52,140 bases of DNA from a virus: positions 94,509-146,648 of the IMG/VR virus record IMGVR_UViG_3300023181_000001; one strand, given 5' to 3'. Numbering within the stretch: position 1 is the first letter of the stretch; every line of letters starts with the position of its first letter. A program made the position numbers and the translations under genes. Positions 8,031 to 51,250 of this stretch are shown piece after piece. Below the pieces are notes generated by a model. It was not told the origin of the DNA and ran no database searches. It saw only the letters and a program-made list of their open reading frames with translations.

Positions 8031-10442
8031 TTAATGACATTCATACCAATTTCGACCTACAATCCATTCATACCCTAAAGGTACATTAAGCTTTAAAAGT
8101 TCCTCTGTCTTTCTCATACCATATTCAATAGCTAAAGATACAATATTAGGCGGACAAACATACCAAACTCTCCCTTCTCCTACAGCACTTAACTGCCCCT
8201 CTCCTTTCCAGTTCTTTATAAAATCTTGTGCTTGCTCCTTGCTTTCAAACATTTCAAATTTAACTAAATCTTTTTTAACATATAATTGGCACTCGTCATG
8301 ATAAGCAATCATCTCACACACAGAGGGTTGAGCTACAAAAGGGTCGATATTATACCCCAACTCTTCTATATATTGCATAGAAAAAACATTAACGTATTTT
8401 GCACAAATCACACCACCGCTTTGAAAGATATTGTTCAAAAGACTGTGACGACTTCTTGTTTTAATAAGTCTGCCATCAATTCCTGGCACTGAGTCTTGTC
8501 CATTTGCATCCCAATATTTCTCCACTCCTTCTTTTAATTCTTTCAGTGCTAAAAGGGAATCCCAAAAACCTTCAAAAATTTCTGTGGCTCTCTCTTGTGT
8601 AACACCTAACATTTTCTTCACTTTAGGTATTTTTCCACCGTATACGAGCATGTAATTTGTACTCTTTGCGGAATCTCTATCTAGTCCTAATTTAATTCCT
8701 GTCAAGGTATGGATGTCATTTGGCTTAGATGCTAGCAATGTTTCCGCTAACTCTTGCCCTCCTGTATATTTCCAGCAATAGTGGCCTTGAATTCGGGCTT
8801 CTAAACTACTAAAATCATAGGCTTGCTGTAGTACTCCCTCTCCACATCCAAACAAACTTCTCATTTCTTTTCCGTAAATTGAACTCGCCCGCGCTATATT
8901 GGCAATTCCGATATGTCGATAGCGATTACTTGAAGCTCCTATTTCAATAGCTGGTGTTGGTACCCTACCGTCAACTTCTCTGTACATAGAAAGAAACCCT
9001 GATTCAGGAAAATCGGTATCAAAGTCCATTTCTTCTACATCACCTCCTGCAATTGAAGACTTCCTATGCTTATAAGTTAAGAACATTGCAAAGTCATTTG
9101 CAAACTCTACTTTCTCTCCTAGTTTTATCAAGTTTGGACATAAATCCTTCTCGATCCCAACTTTTACCTTGGGAGATGTGGGTAATCTTACAGGGAAATC
9201 TTCTTTTAAGCGGTCAAAAACTTTCTTTTTTAAATCTTCTATGTTCTTTGCTTTGAAGTTCTCATAAGCTATCTTAAGTCTGAGTTTTTTATATTTACCC
9301 TCGCTAGTTTCTTTTAACCACCTTTCTACTGCTGTTTCTCTTTTTTCTATTGAAAGGCTCTGCTTTTTACTGTCTTTTGTAAAATCTCTTTCCGCCCATT
9401 CTATTGGTTCCCAATTATAAACATCAATCAAAGTGCTCTTAACATGGTCGAGATTACTGATATCTGCTTCCATGTGAGTTTTTAGGGGGAGGGTGTAAGG
9501 TAATTCATGTCTTTTACCCTCAAAATTTATATAGTATTTCTTATCTTCTTCTGAAACTGTTTCTTCTATTATTGCCCCGATTCTTTGTGTAAACTTTACA
9601 ATATGTGTTGAAGGCTTACCACTTTTTAAAAATTGCGTTGCTGGTGGAGTAAAATGACCTAAATCTGTCTTACCCATAGGTTTTGGCGGTAAGATCGGAT
9701 TAACTTTGTTTTGAAGCTCTTCCATTTTCTGAGTTAAGTCTTCAACGCACTTAATGGCCAGGTCTTTGTCGAACCAAAAGCCTAAAGATTCTCTTCTTAC
9801 TGCTTGGTCAGCTAATTTATTTTCAAGTTTTATTGCTTGTGACCAGCCTTTATAATCCCCCATTTCTTCTACAAGAGCAAAAAATGTATCTTTATTTACA
9901 TTTGTATCTTGGATGCAATATGTCAGAGTTTCTGGAAAATAACATTTGAATTCCGCTCCTTTTGGAGAATTTTTATCGATATAACCTTTTTCAATACAGA
10001 TTCCTCTGAAATCACTTTTGAAATTGGACGTTCTTTGTCCCCAACTTTCGAGAGAGTGGTTTCCAAACCTATCTGGATTTAGAAGTCGTGACACTATCAA
10101 AGTATCTACAAAAATAACTTCCTTTCCAAATAAAGTATCAGGTTGATTCAAGTAACCAATAGTGTAATCTAATAATCCAAACAAACGTAAAACAATGAAA
10201 TCGAACTTAATCCCATTATGGGCTATTAGATGAGTGCAATTCTTTAAAGCGTCTCTAAGGTTATTTTTTGTGAGTTTGTCCTTGTCAAGCGTTATAATTT
10301 CGTTTGTGTGGATGTTACGTAATACAATACACCAAAGTCTTGCATCGGCTTTTAATTTATATGGAAATTGACTGAAATCTAACATATTTGATAGCAAGTC
10401 GTTCGACTCCAAATCCAAAACCCAACCTTCCATATTCTCCAT
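8031..10442 (-). CDS. DNA polymerase I (family A) with 3'-5' exonuclease
   Basis: This 803-aa replicative DNA polymerase is of the T7-like phage type. The proofreading domain has DLE at residues 10-12 (Exo I), AHNGIKFD with D81 (Exo II) and YCIQD with D179 (Exo III). The polymerase domain has motif A DFSSLEAR near residue 540, motif B RDSAKSTNYMLVYGG near 587 and motif C HDE near 714, so both activities look intact. The C-terminus ends GRNWYECH, the usual end of this family, so the gene is complete and not interrupted by the neighbouring homing gene. There is no 5'-3' exonuclease domain. The start is ATG 10442; a second in-frame ATG lies at 10433. It follows a 57-aa gene by one base and should copy the phage genome. 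Confidence 0.95.
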   Translation of the reverse strand: MENMEGWVLDLESNDLLSNMLDFSQFPYKLKADARLWCIVLRNIHTNEIITLDKDKLTKNNLRDALKNCTHLIAHNGIKFDFIVLRLFGLLDYTIGYLNQPDTLFGKEVIFVDTLIVSRLLNPDRFGNHSLESWGQRTSNFKSDFRGICIEKGYIDKNSPKGAEFKCYFPETLTYCIQDTNVNKDTFFALVEEMGDYKGWSQAIKLENKLADQAVRRESLGFWFDKDLAIKCVEDLTQKMEELQNKVNPILPPKPMGKTDLGHFTPPATQFLKSGKPSTHIVKFTQRIGAIIEETVSEEDKKYYINFEGKRHELPYTLPLKTHMEADISNLDHVKSTLIDVYNWEPIEWAERDFTKDSKKQSLSIEKRETAVERWLKETSEGKYKKLRLKIAYENFKAKNIEDLKKKVFDRLKEDFPVRLPTSPKVKVGIEKDLCPNLIKLGEKVEFANDFAMFLTYKHRKSSIAGGDVEEMDFDTDFPESGFLSMYREVDGRVPTPAIEIGASSNRYRHIGIANIARASSIYGKEMRSLFGCGEGVLQQAYDFSSLEARIQGHYCWKYTGGQELAETLLASKPNDIHTLTGIKLGLDRDSAKSTNYMLVYGGKIPKVKKMLGVTQERATEIFEGFWDSLLALKELKEGVEKYWDANGQDSVPGIDGRLIKTRSRHSLLNNIFQSGGVICAKYVNVFSMQYIEELGYNIDPFVAQPSVCEMIAYHDECQLYVKKDLVKFEMFESKEQAQDFIKNWKGEGQLSAVGEGRVWYVCPPNIVSLAIEYGMRKTEELLKLNVPLGYEWIVGRNWYECH

Positions 10443-10443
10443 A

Positions 10444-10617
10444 CTACTCTACCTCCCTAAATAATTTAAAAAATTCTGACTCTTCTCTTACAAATTTTAA
10501 CCCAGTCTCTATCTGCCTATATAAAACCGCTTTATGCCACTCTCTTGTTTCTGGGTTTTTAAGCTCTAGTTCTTTGTCTAGGATTTCGTATTGTTTTTGT
10601 TTGTAAACGTAGTTCAT
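10444..10617 (-). CDS. Small protein upstream of polA, 57 aa
   Basis: Found by hand: ATG 10617 to TAG 10444, one base before the polymerase start. It is charged and helical (NPETREWHKAVLYRQIETGL, then VREESEFFKLFREVE). The W..AV.Y....TG..FVRE..EFF.LF layout looks like a conserved short family. Tight coupling to polA suggests a replication accessory role, but that is inference from position only. Confidence 0.65.
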   Translation of the reverse strand: MNYVYKQKQYEILDKELELKNPETREWHKAVLYRQIETGLKFVREESEFFKLFREVE

Positions 10618-10649
10618 TTTTTACTGTTTTTATCTCTTTTTCGCCGCCT

Positions 10650-10958
10650 TTAACTTTTATTTAATAGCCCTTTCATATTTTCTGATATTTTATCCATCAT
10701 AATTTGATACATTAGATTTTCAGCTTCTTTTTTAGCTACTGAGTAAAAATCATAGTTGTTGAAATTATTAGGCTCTCTTTCAGTATTTCCATAAGTACTT
10801 TCAAAAATAGGTTCTTCACCTTTGAAAGCAATTAAATAGGGTAAATTCTTTTCTTCTCTATCACTACTTCTTGTTTCAGGATAAATATGTTTTACATCTA
10901 CTGTCTTAATTGTATATCCTAAAGTTTCTAAAAAGTTTCTTTGTTGTTCTATATTCAT
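10650..10958 (-). CDS. Unknown protein, 102 aa
   Basis: This 102-aa protein has an N-terminal helix, a strand TIKTVDV, a polar middle and a C-terminal helix (KKEAENLMYQIMMDKISENM) that may mediate oligomerisation. No known motif is seen. Its ATG overlaps the upstream TGA as ATGA. The function is unknown. Confidence 0.7.
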   Translation of the reverse strand: MNIEQQRNFLETLGYTIKTVDVKHIYPETRSSDREEKNLPYLIAFKGEEPIFESTYGNTEREPNNFNNYDFYSVAKKEAENLMYQIMMDKISENMKGLLNKS

Positions 10959-11155
10959 TCATTCGGATTTTTTATTTCGTAGAATTCAGGGTTTAGGTCG
11001 GGATATGTTTTAGTGAACCAATTATATAAGTTTTCAGGATGGTCTTTAGGCAAACCCTCTCTTAATAGACCCCTATAGTCTCCTACCCAATAAGTGCTTA
11101 TGTTTAATTCTTTTGGTGAATCTGCTTGTGACTTATAATTATTTTTTAGTTTCAT
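10955..11155 (-). CDS. Small protein of unknown function, 66 aa
   Basis: This is a 66-aa hydrophilic protein containing WVGDYRGLLREGLPKDHP and a Trp/Tyr-rich end (NWFTKTYPDLNPEFYEIKN). It has no cysteines or membrane segment. It overlaps the 56-aa gene upstream by 17 bases and the next gene by an ATGA. The function is unknown. Confidence 0.65.
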   Translation of the reverse strand: MKLKNNYKSQADSPKELNISTYWVGDYRGLLREGLPKDHPENLYNWFTKTYPDLNPEFYEIKNPNE

Positions 11156-11309
11156 ATCTTACAGTTGTGTTTTGTCTATCCATAAGTTCCCTCTCTTGTC
11201 TGTCCCACTCTTTAGAAAAGTTATCATAAATTTCTTGTTCTTCTTTTTCAGTGAGATTTCTTCTTTGGAGATTACCCATCATTATCTTAATCCATTTATC
11301 TTTATTCAT
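11139..11309 (-). CDS. Small helical protein, 56 aa
   Basis: Found by hand: ATG 11309 to TAA 11139. It is strongly charged and predicted all-helical (NLTEKEEQEIYDNFSKEWDR), the kind of short helix-turn-helix seen in phage anti-host proteins, although no DNA-binding pattern can be assigned. It overlaps both neighbours slightly, consistent with coupled translation. Confidence 0.6.
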   Translation of the reverse strand: MNKDKWIKIMMGNLQRRNLTEKEEQEIYDNFSKEWDRQERELMDRQNTTVRYETKK

Positions 11310-11448
11310 TTTTATCCGTGATTTTTAAATACTCTCTAAAATCCTCTAACGACTTTTCAAACCCTTTCTGACAGCAAAAGTTATGTCCATTTGTAGCTAT
11401 GGGGTTGTTATCACATTCTGATTCTTTACACACTTTTACTATTTTCAT
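11302..11448 (-). CDS. Small Cys/His protein, possible zinc knuckle
   Basis: Found by hand: ATG 11448 to TAA 11302, 48 aa. The ligand-like set is C7, C12, H22, C25 and C26 (CKESEC...GHNFCC), which could bind one zinc ion, followed by a helix SLEDFREYL. Small zinc-binding proteins of this type are frequent in phage early regions. It overlaps the YopX-like gene by 23 bases. The function is unknown. Confidence 0.6.
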   Translation of the reverse strand: MKIVKVCKESECDNNPIATNGHNFCCQKGFEKSLEDFREYLKITDKNE

Positions 11449-11779
11449 GCTCGTAAATATTACCTATTACTTTTCTCCACTCTCTTAAGTCACTCTTACT
11501 TCCACATAAGTCCCAATCCCCTATAATATACTCTGATAAAATAGTTTCAGGCTTAAATTCACCGCCCCATTCACGCTCATCGAAGTCTAATTTATCTCCG
11601 TGGTAAATTTTATTACCTTCCTTATCTCTTAAGTTTAAGTACTGGCCTACTGTTTTTGGATGTACTGGATATATTGTATGCCCTGAATGAATTTTATTCA
11701 CTCCTTCATCTATAAAATAGTGTCCATAAACCCAATTTCCATTTATTGTACTTTTCCCGCGAAATTCTATTTCAAACAT
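11426..11779 (-). CDS. YopX family phage protein
   Basis: This 117-aa protein has the full YopX signature: an EFRGKS start, GNWVYGHYF, then TVGQYLNLRDKEGNKIYHGD and a C-terminal WRKVIGNIYEHENS. YopX proteins are short beta-rich proteins widespread in phages and prophages of Firmicutes and Bacteroidota; their role is not established. The length matches the family. It starts two bases after the upstream membrane-protein gene. Confidence 0.88.
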   Translation of the reverse strand: MFEIEFRGKSTINGNWVYGHYFIDEGVNKIHSGHTIYPVHPKTVGQYLNLRDKEGNKIYHGDKLDFDEREWGGEFKPETILSEYIIGDWDLCGSKSDLREWRKVIGNIYEHENSKSV

Positions 11780-11781
11780 AT

Positions 11782-12288
11782 CTAATATACTTCGAATTTG
11801 TTAATAACTGTTCCTTTAGGTACTACTATTTTATATTCTTCTGAGGGTTGATCTCTATAAGATTTTACAATACCTGTTATTGATACCCTTTTTATGTATT
11901 TCCTTTCTATGTGTGGTGTTCCTTCTCTTTCTTCAATAACTGTATTTTCTACTTGTTTTTTGCCGCGCCTGAAATATCCATTGATATCTTTAAAGTAATA
12001 ATAGTAGTATTCGACTTGCTCCACGGAACCTGTGCCTAGAACAAAACTGCCTTCCACATCATTAGAATTTTTAAGAGATTGTATCTTACAATAATAATCA
12101 TAATTTATGCTCTGCTCTTTTACATCCAAATATAAAGTGCCAAACATTATAAAAACTGATAAAATTAAATTAAGAAAAATACTGAAAAGCCAATCTATAG
12201 CTTCATCGCAAGCTTTTCCCCATAAAATCACAAGTGTTCCCCAATAAAACAATATCAGTCCTATTATAAATTGTCCTTCTGTTATCAT
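11782..12288 (-). CDS. Inner-membrane protein, two N-terminal helices
   Basis: This 168-aa protein has hydrophobic segments at residues about 5-24 and 33-54 (IIGLILFYWGTLVILW; LFSIFLNLILSVFIMFGTLYL), then a soluble, tyrosine-rich domain (VEYYYYYFKD) with beta character. It should sit in the cytoplasmic membrane with the C-terminal domain on one face. Its ATG overlaps the lipoprotein gene's stop as ATGA, so the two are made together. It could act in envelope modification or superinfection control, but that is inferred from the neighbouring exported proteins. A holin role is less likely given the large tail. Confidence 0.72.
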   Translation of the reverse strand: MITEGQFIIGLILFYWGTLVILWGKACDEAIDWLFSIFLNLILSVFIMFGTLYLDVKEQSINYDYYCKIQSLKNSNDVEGSFVLGTGSVEQVEYYYYYFKDINGYFRRGKKQVENTVIEEREGTPHIERKYIKRVSITGIVKSYRDQPSEEYKIVVPKGTVINKFEVY

Positions 12289-12611
12289 TTGATGCTATTA
12301 AAATATTGTTTAATTTTTAAATCCTCTTTTCTGATACGGATATCTAGGTCATCTCTGTGTTTATTATAGTCTAATTGTAGGCTGTCTAATCTTTCCTTTT
12401 TTGTGAGTTCGCACAGAGTATCTCCCTCGTGATATTTTGCATAATATCTCGGCATTGTTAAGGTGTAGTATTTTCTGTCTTTTAATACTTCTAGTTCTAC
12501 ATTTCCCCAAGAATAATTACTTGAAACTACTAAGGCTCCACAATAATCTTGTTCCAGATCATTCCCGCAACTTAAAAATAAGAGCGGTATAAATAATAAT
12601 AGTTTTTTCAT
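12285..12611 (-). CDS. Phage-encoded lipoprotein
   Basis: This 108-aa protein begins with a lipoprotein signal peptide (MKKLLLFIPLLFLSC) with Cys15 in a lipobox, so it should be lipidated and anchored in an envelope membrane. The residues just after the cysteine (GNDLEQD) are acidic, as in some Bacteroidota surface-export signals. The mature part has two further cysteines, which may form a disulfide, and a charged helical tail. Phage lipoproteins often block later infection by masking a receptor or entry pore; that role here is inference. It is coupled to the downstream membrane-protein gene. Confidence 0.75.
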   Translation of the reverse strand: MKKLLLFIPLLFLSCGNDLEQDYCGALVVSSNYSWGNVELEVLKDRKYYTLTMPRYYAKYHEGDTLCELTKKERLDSLQLDYNKHRDDLDIRIRKEDLKIKQYFNSIK

Positions 12612-12814
12612 CCTTTTATATTTTTAAATTCTACTTCCCCTAAATTTAACTCAACTATATTGTCTACTACCTTATAATCCTTTTTTAAATAGTCTAGAAA
12701 ACTTAAGAAATTATTCCTAGATCTTTCTACATTCGAAGTATAAATTACACAAGGTAGAAAATTATGATTACATCTATCTATGATTTGGAGATATGAAAGT
12801 TTTTGTTTATTCAT
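12608..12814 (-). CDS. Unknown small protein, 68 aa
   Basis: This 68-aa protein has a strand-helix pattern (LPCVIYTSNVERSRNNFLSF) and an acidic end (VDNIVELNLGEVEF). It has no signal peptide, although it precedes the lipoprotein gene with an ATGA overlap. The family is not recognised. Confidence 0.65.
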   Translation of the reverse strand: MNKQKLSYLQIIDRCNHNFLPCVIYTSNVERSRNNFLSFLDYLKKDYKVVDNIVELNLGEVEFKNIKG

Positions 12815-41300: not shown

Positions 41301-41470
41301 GGATTATACCCACTATAGACTGACATTCCCGAATTCGGATTTTGTTGGTTTTGTGGAAATTGGAACGGTGAAAAATAATCATATCTTGACATAGGATTAT
41401 TTGGATCAAATCCTCCGCCAAATTGCATTTTTGGTAATGTAAGGAATTTTTTTAAATTATCTAAGCTCAT
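38309..41470 (-). CDS. crAss-like virion protein with KGG motifs, 1053 aa
   Basis: This 1053-aa protein is rich in Gln and Asn. Near the N-terminus two repeat units read GMSVYSGYNP and GMSVNSGYAP. Residues about 270-345 carry the block I recognise from crAss-like virion proteins: YMQKGGSVSVGKF, VEIEKNEFVLNAKDGQVQKA, ETHEKGGIKTNLPEGSQVLS. A coiled-coil segment follows (about 375-445), then more short GG elements (LQEGGE, MAEGGV, KQDGGY). It is probably a capsid-packed or tail-associated cargo protein. It overlaps the transglycosylase gene as ATGA, so the two are made together. Confidence 0.72.
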   Translation of the reverse strand: MSLDNLKKFLTLPKMQFGGGFDPNNPMSRYDYFSPFQFPQNQQNPNSGMSVYSGYNPDLQYQQANPYYGMSVNSGYAPAQAPAPDINWLSDLTKTMSQNIQSAQNPVTPIAQNTSTVQTPPLNAYDDGSTPQLGAISSNYKSPQRNISNLNTQGGYQFNTSGNDVTAGQALDAQTNYNKQQAEQPLKLFNPFGGVDVSAALQYGFYNAGQGNGGQATLGFGKGLLGLSRQGFSAYGAGKEQRNLMNQQNNQPIYNSTPLEKGGFVDYMQKGGSVSVGKFLSGKYITDSSDQNVEIEKNEFVLNAKDGQVQKAIGETHEKGGIKTNLPEGSQVLSDHTKIGAKNAKELSKELDIKVKAKNTFADVLDKYSKKIGVEKNIEEGEKLVNQTEETLKLEETDTKQINLDFIQQETARIEQEKEELNTQQQEAFKTIFDKQESQKGSFLQEGGETVAPAAQEEEINPNDIVVQVQQAVAQGTPIEEIVNNLLSMGYSEDEASQIIQASQSEQQPQMAEGGVAGEPGARIGDFLKSANLIAQSKGVEPPKLDLEKGDITKNWTELQNWFVKNAPEEVIRYFDEQPITNKGMEILLKNNKTSLKNLGIDTNRSPNSFTLEEKRAIQEAIPLDDKFILEQFADGKVDYRFPQVSANSLSSITPQAQAINASLAQPSGNGFQEQVMTAQDVQATDNNTQQNSAQRGRNVIPMLPVVEGLTPSAALIPRADQVRFNRLEPTLRTPEASIAAINNQTNFVNQQAFQSNPNLAPFLTATNLGTTQQSVNKAIAETDAYNAEAVNRANTYNANVGDKEQLMNINLGQNYEQRLFKTIDNQEQAWSRYLVNKQLQNKQNWMDVNNLNLTNAMTPNYQTDGSNVYFSNPRDYSTRSEEDIQFDNWYRNATPQEQIAYRNSVIAKKQDGGYIYEFEDGAQPMTDQQAREVAQATGFTEDFAREYFRQQGANQTPQYQQAPQRPRVNLETDMIADITSGTNRYTPDGGVIVGDYKKVWLNNRPETFTARAQPQEGRDFTYLSPQDFVKFQQSQNYKQYKSGYKTSNIASR

Positions 41471-43893
41471 AGTCTTATGGGTTTTTCTATTACGGATGTT
41501 GTATTTTTGAAAGAATAATTCTCATTAGGTCTTAACACTACTCTTTCGCCTGTTTGTTCTGAAATTGCCTCTATAGGGTGTTTCATAAAATTCATTGTTA
41601 TGTTCCCGCTCGGTACTCTTACCATTTGATTTGGATATTGCCACATACCCAAAGGTGAGGTCGGTATTTCTCCCCCTATTTGATAGTTTGGAGTTATATT
41701 GAGATAATTTCTCAAAGTATTATACCTTTCTTGAGCCTTTGGGTTATTTTGAGCTTCGGGATTGTTGTAACGCCTTTCTATATCTTGGTTGTATTTCTCT
41801 TGATAATCCAAAGCTCTCTCAGCTTTCAGAATGTCTGCGTTTTCATCATACCTACCCGAACCATAGCCTTGAGCATTATTCATTCTCTCATTGTATTCTG
41901 ATAGGCTGAAGCTATTAGGCATTTGAGCATTTGGTAATACTTCTAAACTTGCTTGAGGTACAATGTTATTATAAACTTGGGCTACTCCTTGCTCCTCTAC
42001 TTTTGAAGCTGTATTTTGAATTTCTCTTTGTTGTTTATAGATTTCGGCCTTAGCTTGATAGCCTGCTTTATTCTTTATAACAACTGTTTGTTCTGGCTTT
42101 TTGTAATTACCTATTGAAACTTTCGTATTTATGTCAGGTCTGCCCTGTATCGGATTTTTTATGGTATTCTTAAAAGTTGTACGGGAAATTGGGTTTATGC
42201 CTGTGATTTGTCTTCCATTATCATCCTCAGTAACACTCATATCAAAAATTCTTCCGTTATTGCTATTATCAACGTCTCTTAGGCTTCCCATATATACCAA
42301 AGGTCTTTTCTGCATATCTTCTTTGGTCTGCCTGTTCTCTTCATATAAATACAAACTATCTTGATATGCTTGGTATCTAGGATCATTAGCATTATCTACA
42401 TATAACGTTCCCCCTTTTTGATAGGCACCTAAAACGGTGTTATTTAATTCATTTAAAGTTTTATATTCTCTATCTCCTCTATGGTCATATAAGTATTGAT
42501 AATTTTTAGGAGCTATTTCTTTATGTGTTTCATATTCTACGGTACCCTTTATCTCATAAGGACTTTTTCCTTGTATATAGGCGGGTATGTCGTTAGTTAA
42601 AAATTTCACAGATTGTATTAGATTATCTTGTCCCGCATGTGAAATTTCTTCAAGGTAGCTATCAGGCGAAAAATAATCTTCAGCAGTTGTTAGCCCAGGT
42701 AGGCTTATGGTATTATTAAAAGGATTATAATTTGGTCGCTTGCCAGTAAATGGTAAACCTTTGTTTTCAAAAGAAATTTCAGGATTTCCATTTCTGTACT
42801 GTAAATCTAAAAGTCTTTGGTATTCATTACCGTCTAGAATTTTTTCAGCGCTTTCAAAATACTTTTTTGTATCTCCATCGAAATTCCTTCTTTCATTATC
42901 AGAATACATTTTAGAACGAGGTTTAACTAAATTTCCTGTTCTATTTATTTCTGCCTTATCTTCTATTGTTCTTCTTACTTCTCCAAAATTTAATTTTTCT
43001 TTTTGTGGCGTAGTATCTTTTATTCCAATATTAATTTCTGTAGGTCTTCTATAACTAAAAGTACCTCCTTTTTGCATTTGTAAGAAACTGTCTATTTCAG
43101 CGTAAGTTTGATTGGGATCTACATAGTATTCTGTAGTATCTTCTTGAATAGGTTGAGACTCTTCTTGAGGTGCTTGTTGTACTATGACTTCTTTTTCTCT
43201 TATTATTTCTTTCTCCGCCTGTTTTTCTTCGAGTTTTTGTATATTTTCATCCTCGTCGGGAATATAGGAAGTTCCTGCAAAATTAGGGAGTTCTTTGGTA
43301 AATACCAAATCTGTTAATCTGCTATTAACTTCTTGAAGGTTTTGGACTGTTTCTTGTGGTGTTATTTGTTTTTCACTATTTGTATACCTTGTTACAGGCG
43401 CACTCATCTTTGCCTTGAAGTGGTTGCTTATATCTCCTAAAGTTTTTGCAGAACCGTCTTTGTTATATAAAAGGGCTCTGTTCTGCTTTAAAATTATGGG
43501 AGAGAAGAATTGATCTGTTCTTATGTTTGGGTTTTTAGTTACACCTTCAATTAGTCTTCCCGCTCCTGCCGCTCCAAACCCATGTGCCAAATAAAGTTCG
43601 TAGTCATCAGGTTGCCTACCTAATCTTTTAGAAAGCTGTTTTTTATTCTCTTCTGTGAAAAGTTTCATTACCTGTTTAGATTTTTCAGGGTCTAGTCTGT
43701 CATCTTGAGAGTAATTCAGATTATATTTTTGAGTAAGATTTCTCCAAGTAGAAGGTACAAATTGGAAAAGTCCCGCCGCACCGAAAGGGTTTTTGGCGGT
43801 TGTTGACCCTCCACTTTCTGCCGATGCCACTTTTCGGGTATACTGCTCATAAGGGTCATTCTGAAAAGACTTAATTGTCGTAATAGGTGGCAT
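41467..43893 (-). CDS. Virion lytic transglycosylase with cargo-type C-terminus
   Basis: This 808-aa protein has an SLT-type lysozyme-like domain at residues about 14-150: ASAESGGS with catalytic Glu26, PFGAAGLFQFVPSTW, and YLAHGFGAAGAGRLI. It should cut peptidoglycan locally during DNA entry. The rest resembles crAss-like cargo proteins: MQKGGTFSYR, AYQKGGTLYVDNANDPRYQA, and YQIGGE. Near residue 415, YLEEISHAGQ followed by EYETH looks like a degenerate zincin motif lacking the first His of HExxH. Its ATG lies 23 bases inside the muzzle gene's end, and it couples by ATGA to the next gene. Confidence 0.82.
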   Translation of the reverse strand: MPPITTIKSFQNDPYEQYTRKVASAESGGSTTAKNPFGAAGLFQFVPSTWRNLTQKYNLNYSQDDRLDPEKSKQVMKLFTEENKKQLSKRLGRQPDDYELYLAHGFGAAGAGRLIEGVTKNPNIRTDQFFSPIILKQNRALLYNKDGSAKTLGDISNHFKAKMSAPVTRYTNSEKQITPQETVQNLQEVNSRLTDLVFTKELPNFAGTSYIPDEDENIQKLEEKQAEKEIIREKEVIVQQAPQEESQPIQEDTTEYYVDPNQTYAEIDSFLQMQKGGTFSYRRPTEINIGIKDTTPQKEKLNFGEVRRTIEDKAEINRTGNLVKPRSKMYSDNERRNFDGDTKKYFESAEKILDGNEYQRLLDLQYRNGNPEISFENKGLPFTGKRPNYNPFNNTISLPGLTTAEDYFSPDSYLEEISHAGQDNLIQSVKFLTNDIPAYIQGKSPYEIKGTVEYETHKEIAPKNYQYLYDHRGDREYKTLNELNNTVLGAYQKGGTLYVDNANDPRYQAYQDSLYLYEENRQTKEDMQKRPLVYMGSLRDVDNSNNGRIFDMSVTEDDNGRQITGINPISRTTFKNTIKNPIQGRPDINTKVSIGNYKKPEQTVVIKNKAGYQAKAEIYKQQREIQNTASKVEEQGVAQVYNNIVPQASLEVLPNAQMPNSFSLSEYNERMNNAQGYGSGRYDENADILKAERALDYQEKYNQDIERRYNNPEAQNNPKAQERYNTLRNYLNITPNYQIGGEIPTSPLGMWQYPNQMVRVPSGNITMNFMKHPIEAISEQTGERVVLRPNENYSFKNTTSVIEKPIRL

Positions 43894-46800
43894 CGTTTTC
43901 TGTGTTTTTGTAATTAATCTTAAATCTAGACTCTAAATCATTTTCAAGTCTTATTATGAATGAATCTCCTCTCATTCTTTCTAGAAGTTTTTTATTTGCG
44001 AAATTTACCGCTCTTCTGTCAATCTCTCTGTAGATATTGTTATCATCCCAAGTCCATTGCGGAATATTTCTGTTCTCTCTTTTTACACGATTATAGAAAT
44101 AGTTTATGTGCTGTTTCTCATCTTGTTGAACAAAAAGGATATCTTGAGTGTTATCAGGATTTGTTATCGGATATTTTCTCACGTCAGAAACTGCCCTTTG
44201 TTCTTTCAAGTTTAGATTTCCTGAGTTATTGCTATTATTGTAAATAACTGTTTTGTTAAATCCTTTATTCGCCCACTCTGCATAAGACCAATTATCTTGG
44301 TATCTCAAAGCTTCTGAATTTATACTTAAGTTGTCAAAAAGCTTGCTTGAATTTTTATTTGCATAAACTGTCTCTACTATAAAAGGTTTCAATTCTCCTT
44401 GAAATACTTGAAAAGAAGCGTTCTCTAAAGTATGCGACCATAGTTTTGACTGATTTGAATTAAATCCCACTTGGAAAAAATCTTGATGGGAATTGTAGTA
44501 GTTTGGGGTTGAGCTGAAATAGCTGTTCCATCCTTTTCTTTCAAACTTATAGCTTATAGTCCAAGATCTGTCTTGAAAATATCTTGAATCTGTTATCTCG
44601 ACAGGTATTTTTATGTCCTCGTAGGTAGGTGTTTCAGTAAAGACACATGTACAGCTCCCAAAACTCTGTTCACAGCCTGTCTGACATGTCGGGTCAATTT
44701 GTTCGACACAGCCTATATTATTTACAATCGCATCTACAACATCATCGCCTATTCCTACCCCATTTTGATTATAATAATAAGTCCCTCCTGTTTTATTTGC
44801 ATAATTCTGCATAAGGTAAGTTATATTAGGTGCCAGGCCTCCATTTGGAGGTATAGGGAAGGGCTGATTACCCGCAGTCAAGAAAGGAAATATCTGAATG
44901 CCCTGTGAACTAGATTGCTCAGCCAAAGCATCTGCCTCTACCCAATCTTCTAATGTGTAACTGTCAGTTAACCCTGAAGGAGGGGCATCTGTCACTAAAA
45001 TAATAGCTTTTGCCGCATTCTCTCTGAAAGTCCCTATAGTGAATCCTCCCATGGGACTACCTTCAAAATCTATAGATACTGTGTTGTCTAAAGTGGCTTT
45101 TAAAGCTAAATCACTAGGTTCTGGTAGCCCTGCTCCTCCTGAAGCGAATATTGTATTCATAGCTGTCAAGAACGGAGTTTCATTTGCAATAGCCATAGGA
45201 GCTAATATGTCAAAAAGAGGCTGTCCTATCCCTCTTCTGTCTTTAACTGCAATTAGCCCTAGTCTGTAGTCACTTCCAAATTCTGCAATGATTGAAGGTA
45301 CTATGGAAGAACTTATTGCGTCTTTTATGCCGTTTATTGCTCCTGACTGAGAGGATGTTGCATCCAAGATGAAAACTATGTCCAATCCTTCATCGCATCC
45401 TTCTCCATCTTTCTCACATTTACCTGTTGTCGTATTATACTCAAAGCCTACTGGACATGAAGAAGTTACTGTCGCTCTTTCACATAACTGTGTTACAGGA
45501 TTATAGGTATAGCCTTCATTGCAGATAGGCTGTGGTTCTTCTCCCTCACAATTTGTCAGATTCAGTACAAACCCTGTCTCAGGATCATACTCAATACAGT
45601 CTGATATCGGAACAGCATCTAATTTTGTCAAAAAGAATCTTTTGTTTACTGCATCATACCCTCCTGAAATTCCTAATTTTAGAAACGGATTGTCTATGTC
45701 AGCGTCTTTGAAAAATCTTTTTATTTTAAATGGAAGCTGTTTCTTAAACCACCTCTGCATATTGGATATCTCTCCTGAAAAGCTGTAAGCCATGTCTTCT
45801 ATCTTATCCGCCCCATTGCTTAAGAATATAACCTGTCCTCTTTCAGAATCTATATGGATGTCTCCAAATTCAGTCTCAATTACATTATGGTGCTGAGTAC
45901 CTGTAAATCCAAGAGAACTCTTTACAAACTCCACAGGTTTTGTTGTGAATATTCCTCCTGTTCCAAGTTCTTTTGTCTGAGCTGTTATTCTTTCTGCGAG
46001 ATTGTCCACAGTATTGAAAACTTGCATCCCATCTGTGAACCTAGCAACTGCCTGATTTCTTGTAGACTCTTTTAGGCTTTTCAATTTACCCGAATCGGTA
46101 TCGAAATCATAAGAGTTCAAAGGCTTATAAACTAAGTATGGATCATAAAAGTTGTCATATTCGCTATTATCCAGTTCTGACCATATAATTTCATTAACGT
46201 TTTGCGATATTTGATTCCATTTTTTTCTGTCATAACTTGTGGGAAGATTTACAGTATTTGTGTAAATTCTAGGTAAAGAAAATACATTGCTATATAGAAT
46301 AGAATTAGGCTCTTTTATAGATATGTTCTTTTCTTGAGTGAGGAATTCCAAATTAGGCACTACTGGATAGAAGTGCGTATTTATATCTTTATTGGCATAT
46401 CTCATATTCAAGTTCATCTCCGACTCTACTAGAAAATCTACCACACTATAATAGGCTGTGTAGAATTTTGAAGGCCTGATATAAAACTTATTCCCTCCTG
46501 GCTTACAGTCAAACTCGTAGTCAGAATCAATGTCTGGCATAGGTATTAGAAATCCATCAAATTCAGTATCTGTTTCATAATCACAGTAGAATCTTGGGAA
46601 CCCTATGTTACTTGCTGTCGAATACTCGTAAGTTGTCTTATCGGGAGTTCCAAAAGCAGTTCTTCTAAAAAACGGTATTTTTCTTTTGTAGGTGAATCTT
46701 GTTATATTTATGTTTCCGCCAAATACGGGTTCACAGTTGTTGGATACTCCTATTTCAAAAATCTTTCCTGTCGTAAGCCATCTCACCGTATCGATATCTC

Positions 46801-49800
46801 CATATTGGTCAGGAACATAGTTTTTCATAGTTACATAGGGACTTGCAATATCAGGAGAAAATTCTCTCTTATCACAGCCTATAGTACTAGAAGTAGCTTT
46901 TGAAGAAGTGTTTTTTATATTGGAGTTATCTATGCTTTGGTATTGTTGAGAGTACTCCAAAAAATTATCACCTAAAGCCAGAAATACCGATCCCTCTCTT
47001 TGGAAATTGTTTATGTTGTAAGTCTCTCCCGCTTTTGTATCGACTAGAGAGAAATCCCCGTCTGGTAGATACCTTGATATGCTTAAAGGTTTGAAATAAT
47101 TTGCATCATCCCTGTTTACTATAATATTGTTATACTTTCCTAAACTGTACCCATAATAAGCAAAGTTGTAAGAAGCTCCGATATCTCTAAAAGACTTAAT
47201 CCAGTCATATCTGTATTGTCCTGACTTTACAAACCCGCTCGTGGCGTAGGCAACTCCTGCTAGTATGGCACCCACAAGTCCCAAACTTGTACCTACAACA
47301 AACCCTGCCATAAAGAACTGGCTTGAAGTAAGCTCTGCTACACTGATAGCCGTTTCTAACACAACCTCTGTAACTGCTAGAGTGGTTGCTGTATTTCTGG
47401 CTTTTCTTCCTAATATTGTCCATTTAGGATGGTCTTCTAATTCAGTGAAATTACTTTTTGCCGTTCCTTTTAAGTACCCCTGTATAGAAATTTCTGTACC
47501 AAGCTGAGTTTTTGTATGTAGCAGGTCAGGAGAAATATAAGTAAATTTATTATTTTTTTCTCCTTGATAAGGGTGCTGTATTACATTACTTGCACTCCTA
47601 TTAGGCTTATGGTACAGATCTCCTCCTAAATCATTATAAGGAAAATTAGAATAAAGATACTGTTTGTCATCCCTGTCATATTGATACATATCAAACATTA
47701 ATCCATTTGAAATAACACTCTTACTGTAAGTGTTATCCCCTCTCAAAATTTCAAATCCGAAAACATTGTCGGCTTCCTTCTGAGTCATAAGATTATTTCT
47801 AACTGCAATTTTTAACATACCTTCAACCACTCTAGCATCCAAATGCACTCCTAGAGGATATATGAAACTGTCTGTAAAAGACGGCATCTCTTGATTTGCA
47901 ATAAAAGGTGCTACTCTATTATCTGGCATTTTTGGGTGTCGTATTTTTGCACATCGAAAATCCGCACCTTCTTTAAGCGTATAGTAGTTGTCGTCGTCTA
48001 ACCCTTCTGCATAATACTGTTCAAACTTAGTTCTCAAATCAGAAGGTATATCGGAAGGCTCAATTTTTAATCCGCTACTGTCGTATAAGTCCTTATTGTC
48101 AGGATATGTCCTAGTACTTTCCCAAAAAGAAAATTCCCCTTGTTTGTAAGGTATAGGTTCGCATTCTAAATTATCGGGTAGAAAATAAGTACATGAAGTA
48201 GAGTATTTCTCAGATTTGTCAAGAATTATTGAAGTCCATGAAACTGTTGCTCTATCATAGGTTACGTCTCTTGTCACTACAGCAAAACATCCGTCTGGTG
48301 GGGCTGTTCTAAACTTTACTACGGGCGTTGCTTCTGGGTCGTATCCGTTTTCTTGGGTGTCATCTTTTGGAAGTCCCAAAGTTTGATTTACCCATGGATC
48401 TATAGCTACAAACATATCTCCCGAAGCAAAGGGATTTACTAGAGGAATTACAGTATTATTAATTATTACTATATCGTTCTGAGAAGTTCCATCCAGGTCT
48501 CCTGTCAGGTTGTCTACATTAACTGTGAGGGTTATAGCCGATCTTAAACTTATAATCCCATCTTCTATCGATATTCTTATTCCATTTTCTTCCAGCTCTG
48601 TCCCGTTTTCGAGCATAAAATTGTTAATGGTAGTGTCTATATCTGTGTCAAAAACCATAGGGTAAGACTCTAGATTTATTATGACGCTTGCAGAACCCGA
48701 AGTTCCTGTAATGACCAATCTAGAATCCGTATTTCTATAACTTTCTATTCTATATTTTAACCCTTGTGTTCTTATGGGAATAATCTCACCATAGAAGGCT
48801 TGTGTATCAGAACACTTGTGAAACAGGGAAACCCTCACTTTTTGAGTAGGATTTACTGTTGTTTCTATTATGTCGTCGTTTGCGGGAGCCTCTTGAGTCT
48901 TAGATACTTCTAATATAAATTTATTTCTATTAAGGGTATTTGCTTTAAACCATAAAGCCCCTGACTGAATTTTTTCTCCAAAACCATTTACGCCTGTAAG
49001 TTCTGTTAAGTATGCCTCTTTAGCAGTTTCCAATTCTGCTCTTGTTTCTCCGCCTCTGTAGTTTATAAAATATCTTTGGGCATTATTATTTATTGCGGAA
49101 ATGTTGATGATATCGCTGGCAGAAGAGCATCCTTCATTGGTAGAATTATAACTTCTTTTCAATACAGTCTTTCTTGTGTTGTCAGGTATTCCTAAACGCA
49201 TCATATAGAGATATTCAAAAGTGGTATCCCTTACATAACCTCCTGCCGAACTGGCTTCATAAAAGTTACAAGAGCTGCTAGGAAAATCTTCGTAGCTTTC
49301 TGGAAATGCTGATTCTTCTCTATTGACAAATTCTCCTTCAACAGTATTAATAGAAACTTTAAATTCATCTAGAGTAGGTGTATCGCATACAGTCTCTTCC
49401 ACCTCTGTTTGATTAGACCATGATACTGGCGTATTTCCAGTAGCTGTAAAGACCGTGCCTTCTGTGGTAAAACCTACATTTGAGAAATCATCTCCTGGTT
49501 GCAAATCGTAGATAATGTAATTTTTCCCTTCTGTCAAATTTCCTGAAGTGGAAACTGTTCCAAAAACAGGGATGCAATGAGATTCAGGGTAAGGATTTAA
49601 AAGATAAGGTGTTATTTCAGGGATGATTACGCTAGGATTATCCGCTATGTAATCCTTTAGGTTGTCAAACTCTGTATTTAACTCTATCTCTATTGTGTTT
49701 GCACTAATTTCATCAACTCCTCGAACTATACACACTCTAGATTCAGCTTGTATTACCTCTGTACCGCTGGTAGCTATACTGCAAGTTTTTTCTACTTTTG

Positions 49801-51250
49801 CTGTATTTATGTACTGCCACTTATAATCTCTGTCGGTTGAATCACATCCTGAGATATCCCCCATTAGGTCTGAAAATCCTGTTTCGAGATCTTCACTATT
49901 TGCTGGTCTGGATATGATAGGAAAATTATAGCTCTTGCCTCCATCCTTGAAAAGAAGCCTTAAAGAAAATGGCTGTACTTCATCTCTCATATATCCCATA
50001 TAATCGGCTGAAATAACTCCGTCTTTATATAACTCCTCGTTAGTGATTACCGTCTGCCACTTCATAAGAGAAGAGAGCAGATTTACCACAGGCTGTATAT
50101 TCACTTCTTCCCTTCTTTTTACTCCGTGTATATACTTTCTCGATCCTATAACGGCTTCACCTTCTGCCTTTTCTATTTTAGGCTTTCTAAAAAATATATC
50201 GTTTAATTGTACTTCCTTTTTAGGAGATATAAGACTGTCTCTTTGGGTATTTGTGTAAATTCTTCCCGAAGAAGTTGACAAAACAGTATCGTTTGAAGTA
50301 GAGAAAATCCCCTCTTCATAGGCAAAAATATCTGAATTTAATACGCCTCTTTCTACACATACTACCTTGTAATATCTGTATTTAGGGTCTAAGTTTAAAA
50401 TATTTAACTTTATAGAAAATGAAGTCAGGTCATCTAATTCAGTTGAGTCTAAAATTCTATCATTTTCGTTGAATATTTTTATCACTCCTGAACTTGAAGA
50501 GTACTCTGACATTTCAGCACCATTTTTGTCACAATAGCATGCAAAGTATTCGTAACTTCCCATTCTTAAGTTACCTCCTACATTTCTAGATACTGCTTGA
50601 ATTGAAAGAGGAGAATGTTCAGGAAATTGGAGAAGTTTTTTTATGTCTATGCAATTTGTAATATCATTATCCTCGCAAGGAATCTCCACTTCAAAAAGAT
50701 AGCTTGTATCTGATACGTTTAACCATCTTGGAGGATTTAAGTTATCTTCCCAATAGATAGTAGTACCTGACTGTTCATTTTTTATTACAATATGTTTTAT
50801 AGGATAGATATCTTTGAAATTCAGACCTTTTCCTATATCTAGACAATTATCATTTATAAGCTCTACGTAAATGTTCTCTGCTGTTTGTGTGGTCTGTTCC
50901 AAAGGTTCAGATAATACGTTTGCATTTCCACAGCCTACACAATTTTCTTGAGGGTCTTCATTTTCGTGAAAAGTCAAAAAGTCTTCGACATATCCTATCG
51001 AAGACTTGCTTGTTTCTCTATTGGTTAGAAAATAGTAAGTTACATTTTTTAAGGCGTTCTTTTTAAAACCTATGACTTTATAACCCTCTGGAAAGTTTAC
51101 ATTTAAGTAATTTGAAGGTTCATTGTGAGTTACCTGTCCGTTAGTGTCAGAATTAAGAGCAAAAACAAATTCTCCATCTTGGAGTCTGTCTATGTTATTT
51201 TCCCTGTTCATTCCACGAAGCGGTAAGCTTATTTCTTTTTTCTGTTGCAC
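43871..51250 (-). CDS. crAss-like muzzle/tail protein with inserted vWA domain
   Basis: This 2459-aa protein starts with GTG at 51250. The N-terminus (ISLPLRGMNRENNIDRLQDG, FVFALNSDTNGQ, NFPEGYKVIGFKK, TYYFLTNRETS) and the late part (YLVYKPLNSYDFDTDSGKL, GTGGIFTTKPVEF, DIHIDSERGQVIFLS, RSWTISYKFE) match the muzzle or stabilisation proteins that close the short tail of crAss-like phages. A hydrophobic hairpin lies at about 1308-1337. Between YDAVNKRFFLTKLD and RSWTISY sits an extra block: Cys-rich repeats (1885-1955), then a vWA domain (1955-2181) with MIDAS-like DATSS (Asp1963) and LVTDAPP (Asp2088), then another Cys cluster. The insert probably projects outward and could bind host surface glycans or proteins. 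Confidence 0.85.
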   Translation of the reverse strand: MQQKKEISLPLRGMNRENNIDRLQDGEFVFALNSDTNGQVTHNEPSNYLNVNFPEGYKVIGFKKNALKNVTYYFLTNRETSKSSIGYVEDFLTFHENEDPQENCVGCGNANVLSEPLEQTTQTAENIYVELINDNCLDIGKGLNFKDIYPIKHIVIKNEQSGTTIYWEDNLNPPRWLNVSDTSYLFEVEIPCEDNDITNCIDIKKLLQFPEHSPLSIQAVSRNVGGNLRMGSYEYFACYCDKNGAEMSEYSSSSGVIKIFNENDRILDSTELDDLTSFSIKLNILNLDPKYRYYKVVCVERGVLNSDIFAYEEGIFSTSNDTVLSTSSGRIYTNTQRDSLISPKKEVQLNDIFFRKPKIEKAEGEAVIGSRKYIHGVKRREEVNIQPVVNLLSSLMKWQTVITNEELYKDGVISADYMGYMRDEVQPFSLRLLFKDGGKSYNFPIISRPANSEDLETGFSDLMGDISGCDSTDRDYKWQYINTAKVEKTCSIATSGTEVIQAESRVCIVRGVDEISANTIEIELNTEFDNLKDYIADNPSVIIPEITPYLLNPYPESHCIPVFGTVSTSGNLTEGKNYIIYDLQPGDDFSNVGFTTEGTVFTATGNTPVSWSNQTEVEETVCDTPTLDEFKVSINTVEGEFVNREESAFPESYEDFPSSSCNFYEASSAGGYVRDTTFEYLYMMRLGIPDNTRKTVLKRSYNSTNEGCSSASDIINISAINNNAQRYFINYRGGETRAELETAKEAYLTELTGVNGFGEKIQSGALWFKANTLNRNKFILEVSKTQEAPANDDIIETTVNPTQKVRVSLFHKCSDTQAFYGEIIPIRTQGLKYRIESYRNTDSRLVITGTSGSASVIINLESYPMVFDTDIDTTINNFMLENGTELEENGIRISIEDGIISLRSAITLTVNVDNLTGDLDGTSQNDIVIINNTVIPLVNPFASGDMFVAIDPWVNQTLGLPKDDTQENGYDPEATPVVKFRTAPPDGCFAVVTRDVTYDRATVSWTSIILDKSEKYSTSCTYFLPDNLECEPIPYKQGEFSFWESTRTYPDNKDLYDSSGLKIEPSDIPSDLRTKFEQYYAEGLDDDNYYTLKEGADFRCAKIRHPKMPDNRVAPFIANQEMPSFTDSFIYPLGVHLDARVVEGMLKIAVRNNLMTQKEADNVFGFEILRGDNTYSKSVISNGLMFDMYQYDRDDKQYLYSNFPYNDLGGDLYHKPNRSASNVIQHPYQGEKNNKFTYISPDLLHTKTQLGTEISIQGYLKGTAKSNFTELEDHPKWTILGRKARNTATTLAVTEVVLETAISVAELTSSQFFMAGFVVGTSLGLVGAILAGVAYATSGFVKSGQYRYDWIKSFRDIGASYNFAYYGYSLGKYNNIIVNRDDANYFKPLSISRYLPDGDFSLVDTKAGETYNINNFQREGSVFLALGDNFLEYSQQYQSIDNSNIKNTSSKATSSTIGCDKREFSPDIASPYVTMKNYVPDQYGDIDTVRWLTTGKIFEIGVSNNCEPVFGGNINITRFTYKRKIPFFRRTAFGTPDKTTYEYSTASNIGFPRFYCDYETDTEFDGFLIPMPDIDSDYEFDCKPGGNKFYIRPSKFYTAYYSVVDFLVESEMNLNMRYANKDINTHFYPVVPNLEFLTQEKNISIKEPNSILYSNVFSLPRIYTNTVNLPTSYDRKKWNQISQNVNEIIWSELDNSEYDNFYDPYLVYKPLNSYDFDTDSGKLKSLKESTRNQAVARFTDGMQVFNTVDNLAERITAQTKELGTGGIFTTKPVEFVKSSLGFTGTQHHNVIETEFGDIHIDSERGQVIFLSNGADKIEDMAYSFSGEISNMQRWFKKQLPFKIKRFFKDADIDNPFLKLGISGGYDAVNKRFFLTKLDAVPISDCIEYDPETGFVLNLTNCEGEEPQPICNEGYTYNPVTQLCERATVTSSCPVGFEYNTTTGKCEKDGEGCDEGLDIVFILDATSSQSGAINGIKDAISSSIVPSIIAEFGSDYRLGLIAVKDRRGIGQPLFDILAPMAIANETPFLTAMNTIFASGGAGLPEPSDLALKATLDNTVSIDFEGSPMGGFTIGTFRENAAKAIILVTDAPPSGLTDSYTLEDWVEADALAEQSSSQGIQIFPFLTAGNQPFPIPPNGGLAPNITYLMQNYANKTGGTYYYNQNGVGIGDDVVDAIVNNIGCVEQIDPTCQTGCEQSFGSCTCVFTETPTYEDIKIPVEITDSRYFQDRSWTISYKFERKGWNSYFSSTPNYYNSHQDFFQVGFNSNQSKLWSHTLENASFQVFQGELKPFIVETVYANKNSSKLFDNLSINSEALRYQDNWSYAEWANKGFNKTVIYNNSNNSGNLNLKEQRAVSDVRKYPITNPDNTQDILFVQQDEKQHINYFYNRVKRENRNIPQWTWDDNNIYREIDRRAVNFANKKLLERMRGDSFIIRLENDLESRFKINYKNTENDATYYDN

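Follow-up and report, generated by a model that had tools for sequence, protein, structure and literature searches.

Why does a crAss-like phage carry a von Willebrand A (vWA) domain inside its muzzle, the nozzle of the tail? The stretch analysed here (the window, 52,140 nucleotides) makes up the final 52 kb of a virus record of 146,648 bases. Both contig ends carry the same 127-base direct repeat, so that the record probably represents a whole genome, either circular or permuted. A 565-aa structural protein links this genome, by PHROGs search and tblastn, to Cellulophaga phage phi4:1 and to csAssE-Sib, whose homologue is annotated as the major capsid protein. The initial annotation had placed the vWA domain within positions 44640-45600, equivalent to residues 1884-2204 of the muzzle protein. 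Our preferred answer, which we hold with a probability of roughly 0.7, is that this segment is an exchangeable head that binds the host surface and is plugged into the muzzle. The parts of the gene to which we refer are as follows.

43871..51250, minus strand: muzzle gene, 2459 aa, with a GTG start that is also used in the nearest relative, L001
45596..51250, minus strand: muzzle residues 1-1885, running to ...GYDAVNKRFFLTKLDA (residues 1860-1879), a conserved segment of the propeller
45383..45595, minus strand: N-terminal Cys-rich stalk, residues 1886-1956, with C..GYTYN..C repeats and short strand elements in the model
44708..45382, minus strand: vWA domain, residues 1957-2181, from the AF2 model, Foldseek, Pfam and conserved motifs
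45350..45364, minus strand: MIDAS motif 1, DATSS (DxTxS, a conservative form of DxSxS), residues 1963-1967
45110..45139, minus strand: GGAGLPEPSD where MIDAS motif 2 would be expected, residues 2038-2047; canonical Thr absent, E2044, P2045 and D2047 conserved
44978..44995, minus strand: MIDAS motif 3, VTDAPP, residues 2086-2091, with the invariant D2088 after beta-4
44600..44707, minus strand: C-terminal Cys-rich stalk, residues 2182-2217, from sequence
43874..44599, minus strand: muzzle residues 2218-2459, where the conserved strand DRSWTISY resumes
44531..45565, minus strand: tract divergent from L001 (recombined), residues ~1896-2240, 45-85% DNA identity in 20-codon windows

The protein is firmly identified as a crAss-like muzzle, and the early reading of both its ends as such was borne out. 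It matches family phrog_37948, aligns end to end with phi4:1 gp042 (residues 1-2446, 34.5% identity), and matches the annotated csAssE-Sib muzzle over residues 2-2442 at 30% identity. An alignment of muzzles without an insert matched phiCrAss001 gp44 with an hhalign probability of 97% (E=9e-11); when gp44 was combined with four relatives, the propeller and C-terminal region reached 99.6% (E=1.5e-23). For an AF2 model of residues 1260-2459, built from 29 sequences and of modest confidence (pLDDT 69.9, pTM 0.43), the two best PDB matches were gp44 structures (7qok_A, E=2.1e-8; 7qol_P, E=4e-8), with a low global TM to gp44 of ~0.2 (0.23). The relationship was detected by hhalign and Foldseek; PDB searches by phmmer and hmmsearch matched nothing useful, whether the query was the window protein, A2, A3 or the insert.

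Recognition of the vWA domain required evidence from its fold. A Pfam VWA search of the full ORF and of its own genome gave no match; the domain is divergent. Searched alone, it matched VWA_4 (E=0.0085, 16.1 bits) and VWA (E=0.12, 13.0 bits), below the respective Pfam cut-offs of 27 and 23.8, which are thresholds of detection and not properties of a fold. An AF2 model of residues 1894-2272 contained an alternating beta/alpha, Rossmann-like fold over residues ~1956-2185, with strands and helices spanning positions 63-292 of the 379-residue segment and vWA blocks mostly at pLDDT 70-92. Foldseek placed this model with integrin beta-I (E down to 1.6e-9), CMG2 and vWF A3. At the same place in their muzzles, L009 gave a VWA match of E=5e-6, under the Pfam cut-off, and L007 and L020 matched PF00092 above it (E=6e-18 and 3e-17). 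On the strength of the predicted fold, we take the window domain to be a divergent member of the vWA superfamily; the proposed extent of ~1955-2181 becomes 1957-2181.

The claim that the domain carries metal-site motifs held for motifs 1 and 3. Six relatives whose segments are 49-65% identical all keep D1963, T1965, S1967 and D2088, which belong to DATSS and VTDAPP. At the second motif, a GGxxxPEPxD-type segment in which E2044 and D2047 are invariant replaces the canonical Thr. L007 and L020 do have that Thr; they represent the second subtype of vWA, one whose MIDAS motifs are complete (DxSxS, GSTN, DG). Because it is missing from the window's subtype, predicted metal binding is plausible, not secure. 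Relative to the vWA/integrin beta-I family (PF00092), the window domain thus has the same fold and MIDAS motifs 1 and 3, and differs in its sub-cut-off score, in the replaced motif-2 Thr and in having bacterial relatives of 29% identity at best. The search for a bacterial donor yielded only generic vWA proteins at 25-29% identity. The best full-length match (Myroides, L097) is clustered with further vWA genes and MoxR-like ones, an arrangement that we take to be Bat-operon-like. A search for the vWA domain in isolated phages gave no match.

Cys-rich segments frame the domain, in agreement with the initial annotation: 10 cysteines fall within the 107 stalk residues, versus 25 in the 2127 residues outside the stalks and vWA. 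C..GYxYN..C repeats also precede the head in many of the filled types described below (among them L007, L013 and the group with split genes), and L012 is without them. Since these repeats recur before different types of head, the stalk is common to unrelated heads.

To define the insertion, we gathered 79 viral loci with a C-terminal muzzle alignment and counted 71 non-redundant muzzles. L120, which has stop codons in frame under table 11, was left out, and the large alignment leaves out two rows from annotated records. The segment lies in a slot flanked by conserved ...GYDxxxKRxFxTKxDY and ...DxSWTISYxxxxxxWxSYxS motifs. In 41 of the 71 muzzles the slot holds a loop of 15-37 aa and nothing else; it holds an uninterrupted insert in 15/71, and the gene is split there in the other 15/71. 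Homologues without the insert define its boundaries, which sustains the view that the domain was inserted into a muzzle, and the insert (about 330 aa) accounts for part of the protein's length. We did not see the pattern that would have refuted this, namely a segment present in every close homologue with no vWA fold. Since 41/71 homologues are without an insert, the head is not essential to muzzle function.

Uninterrupted inserts are of several kinds. The window, L001 and L009-L012 carry one vWA type (vWA-T), and L007 and L020 the other (vWA-S). L013 contains a DUF5122 beta-propeller (E=9e-48), L015 a PA14-like domain to which L039 and L049 are similar by eye, and L006 a small insert. L002 and L042 have an insert of the phi4:1 type, whose fold is without assignment. 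A vWA identity for the phi4:1 type, prompted by its FDTTSM motif, was rejected: hhalign gave only 0.2%, with no detectable relation to the window vWA, and there was no Pfam match. The muzzles of Cellulophaga phages phi4:1 and phi17:2 are homologous to that of the window and carry this insert, of ~311 aa, at the same site; the phi4:1 protein is annotated as a virion protein by MS/MS. Adhesive or lectin-like folds predominate among the alternative heads. The comparison of these muzzles shows that the insert occupies a plug-in slot.

In the 15 non-redundant split muzzles, the gene is cut into two ORFs exactly at the slot. ORF1 ends in a head domain, and ORF2 starts with a Cys-rich segment followed by the conserved strand, an arrangement that implies a putative two-chain muzzle. 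Split genes were seen at L014, L017-L019, L021-L029, L031-L037, L041 and L045, for example at L026:5363-12073 and from 12687. ORF1 ends in PKD/Ig domains, with or without LRR, in L026, L032 and L041, in Fib_succ_major in L021 (E=6e-34), in DUF285/BspA LRR in L023 (E=2e-86), in a weak Lcl_C (C-lectin-like) match in L035, and in further types in others. Whether two chains close one propeller is a structural question that these muzzles pose. By sequence reading, an HNH/AP2-like endonuclease-like frame lies between the halves in L026, L028 and L031 (~12074-12686) and is a possible driver of slot exchange. Between the halves in L035 (7984-9910) and L036 (2840-5354), also by sequence reading, lies extra Cys-stalk and PKD-like coding sequence, which might be read as a store of spare head cassettes.

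The empty loops and the endonuclease-like frame in some relatives are what might be expected if a tolerant loop gathered mobile domains that have no function of their own. We consider this highly improbable. The frames are open, the stalk cysteines are conserved and the D, T, S and D residues are invariant at 49-65% identity, which indicates purifying selection, and repeated refilling with adhesive folds would not be expected by chance.

Where the slot sits was determined by comparison with phiCrAss001 gp44 (1371 aa; 7QOK/7QOL), a member of the same family that is without the vWA domain and has a short loop at the slot. In gp44, IG2 spans 318-1021 and the crass fold consists of its insertions 453-904 and 940-1012; by our reading of the published domain scheme, the propeller and ring-joining domain follow after 1021 (PMC10172136). 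The gp44 muzzle is a hexamer at the tail end, and its authors already noted length variation by insertion, which concerns the crass and IG2 regions, and described muzzle insertions and the crass domain as the likely cell contact (PMC10172136). Profile alignments place the slot at gp44 ~1185-1202, beyond the C-terminal end of the IG2/crass region and therefore in the seven-bladed beta-propeller. Placement on the tail tip, as first proposed, is thus not supported, as the slot falls in the propeller and not in the crass tip domain. Its flanks look like the second and third strands of one blade. In propellers, B-C loops share a face with the D-A links between blades, and from this general topology we infer the face from which the slot loop emerges. 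The slot is closer to the tail barrel than is the crass tip, so that reach to the cell surface is putative, and it appears to be a further site of muzzle insertion beyond crass and IG2.

Comparison with the nearest relative, L001, suggests how the slot is filled. Most virion genes of the two phages are ~95% identical and the replication genes are largely unrelated, which points to strong mosaicism. Nothing in the L001 genome matches several replication and accessory genes (window 1-30000, genome 20001-94508), among them one for an 803-aa DNA polymerase (window 8031-10442). Within the muzzle, differences over residues 1-1895 are few, scattered and almost only synonymous, the last ~60 residues are identical, and divergence is concentrated in the tract between them. 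When the 18-kb block shared with L001 was divided into sixty 300-base windows (median identity 0.973), the three lowest were 44641-44940 (0.60), 44941-45240 (0.65) and 45241-45540 (0.69). Synonymous divergence is raised within the tract, and the many synonymous sites that differ argue for recombination rather than point mutation or selection alone. Against L007, the muzzle is 84% identical upstream and 84% downstream, versus 36% in the insert; against L009-L011, the body is 36-44% identical, versus 52-57% in the insert. As inserts outpace their bodies in divergence in close pairs, an insert that is more alike than the body around it indicates lateral transfer. On a tree of the 71 muzzle cores, in which some long branches are uncertain, insert type changed at least 15 times and the slot passed between filled and empty at least 6 times. 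Head modules are thus exchanged horizontally and do not arise by drift. A diversity-generating retroelement would be an unlikely source of the variation, as the pattern seen is one of whole-module replacement and not of mutation at adenine sites.

The same pair of phages differs in other tail components. Up to residue ~377 their tail-fibre-like proteins are 97% identical, and beyond it they are unrelated; the transglycosylase cargo protein differs as well. Such differences allow for co-variation, as would be seen if the vWA domain were a module that docks fibres, cargo or adjacent muzzle subunits in the virion and varies with its partner, and vWA domains often mediate protein-protein contacts. 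Fibres are usually attached to the virion through their N-terminal part, however, and it is this part that is conserved at 97%, with only the C-terminus swapped. Docking also leaves unexplained how one slot can be empty or hold folds as unrelated as vWA, propeller, LRR and lectin-like ones, and we judge it unlikely. Less likely still is that the insert binds mucus, particles or extracellular matrix, in place of a cell receptor, and so concentrates virions near their hosts. Glycan-adhesive proteins, too, often contain PKD/Ig, PA14-like and lectin-like folds such as those found at the slot, but a joint swap with the fibre C-terminus, in virion modules that are ~95% identical elsewhere, is more in keeping with host specificity.

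We therefore return to the host-surface-binding head, for which domain-exact hypervariability and module exchange offer indirect support: a hypervariable, exchangeable domain on a conserved scaffold, a trait of receptor-binding proteins, is present. The vWA domain on its Cys-rich stalk would sit in a loop between two strands of a propeller blade, with six heads per virion if the muzzle is hexameric as in phiCrAss001. The ligand of the head would be a protein or glycan of the host envelope, with a bound divalent metal probably mediating the contact, and the head may dock the muzzle for ejection after the fibres have engaged the surface; recombination among related phages would refill the slot and retarget the tail end. 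We infer the exposed position, metal binding, receptor binding and any gate-opening link of the head. The initial annotation had left open whether the head replaces or adds to a tail fibre. Since a 1072-aa, GDSL-bearing fibre-like protein is kept in the genome, replacement can be set aside and the head would supplement the fibres. A broader reading, which we advance tentatively and rate somewhat below an even chance, is that the propeller slot is universal in this crAss-like group and swaps unrelated adhesive folds on a Cys-rich stalk, that many lineages have two chains (the head being the free C-terminus of the first, with the second completing the propeller), and that receptor binding could act on the DNA/cargo gate.

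The integrin beta-I domain emerges from a loop of a beta-rich domain, close to Cys-rich modules, and the window vWA is likewise carried on a loop of such a domain and lies beside Cys-rich segments. Phage tail fibres are known to have swappable receptor-binding heads, as in T-even gp37/gp38, where a conserved scaffold similarly carries a hypervariable, recombining head. Unlike in T-even fibres, the window's head lies within a nozzle/gatekeeper protein, and unrelated folds use one slot. phiCrAss001 gp52 is vWA-like and is a stand-alone protein from a separate 255-aa gene, not a muzzle domain. Among open-licence PMC papers we found no vWA domain or exchangeable head slot in crAss-like tails or muzzles (subscription papers or preprints could describe one), and the viral vWA proteins found in the literature were CobT/AAA-partner types, not muzzle domains. 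What appears to be new here is a vWA domain and a swappable head slot in a crAss-like gatekeeper; swappable phage receptor-binding heads as such are known. For recognition of the cell surface by crAss-like phages once past the capsule, tail fibres have been credited with receptor roles, as has, by inference, the crass domain. A domain-exact, hypervariable muzzle slot is a candidate second receptor-binding site, and it supplies about 30 natural variants with which a receptor role can be tested. Slot content also provides a sequence feature for predicting host range in phages that are mostly uncultured.

Other variable genes were seen in this phage. The transglycosylase cargo gene (41467-43893) contains about 640 bases (42420-43060, ~213 aa) that L001 lacks (808 vs 590 aa), and the extra segment had no Pfam match. 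The 1072-aa fibre-like protein, with its GDSL/SGNH esterase domain, is encoded at L098:8308-11526 (genome positions 8308-11526), and its C-terminus is replaced in the L001 genome. Adjoining it, at L098:6932-8278, is another variable tail gene: only 56% of its 448-aa protein aligns with the version in the L001 genome, at 61% identity.
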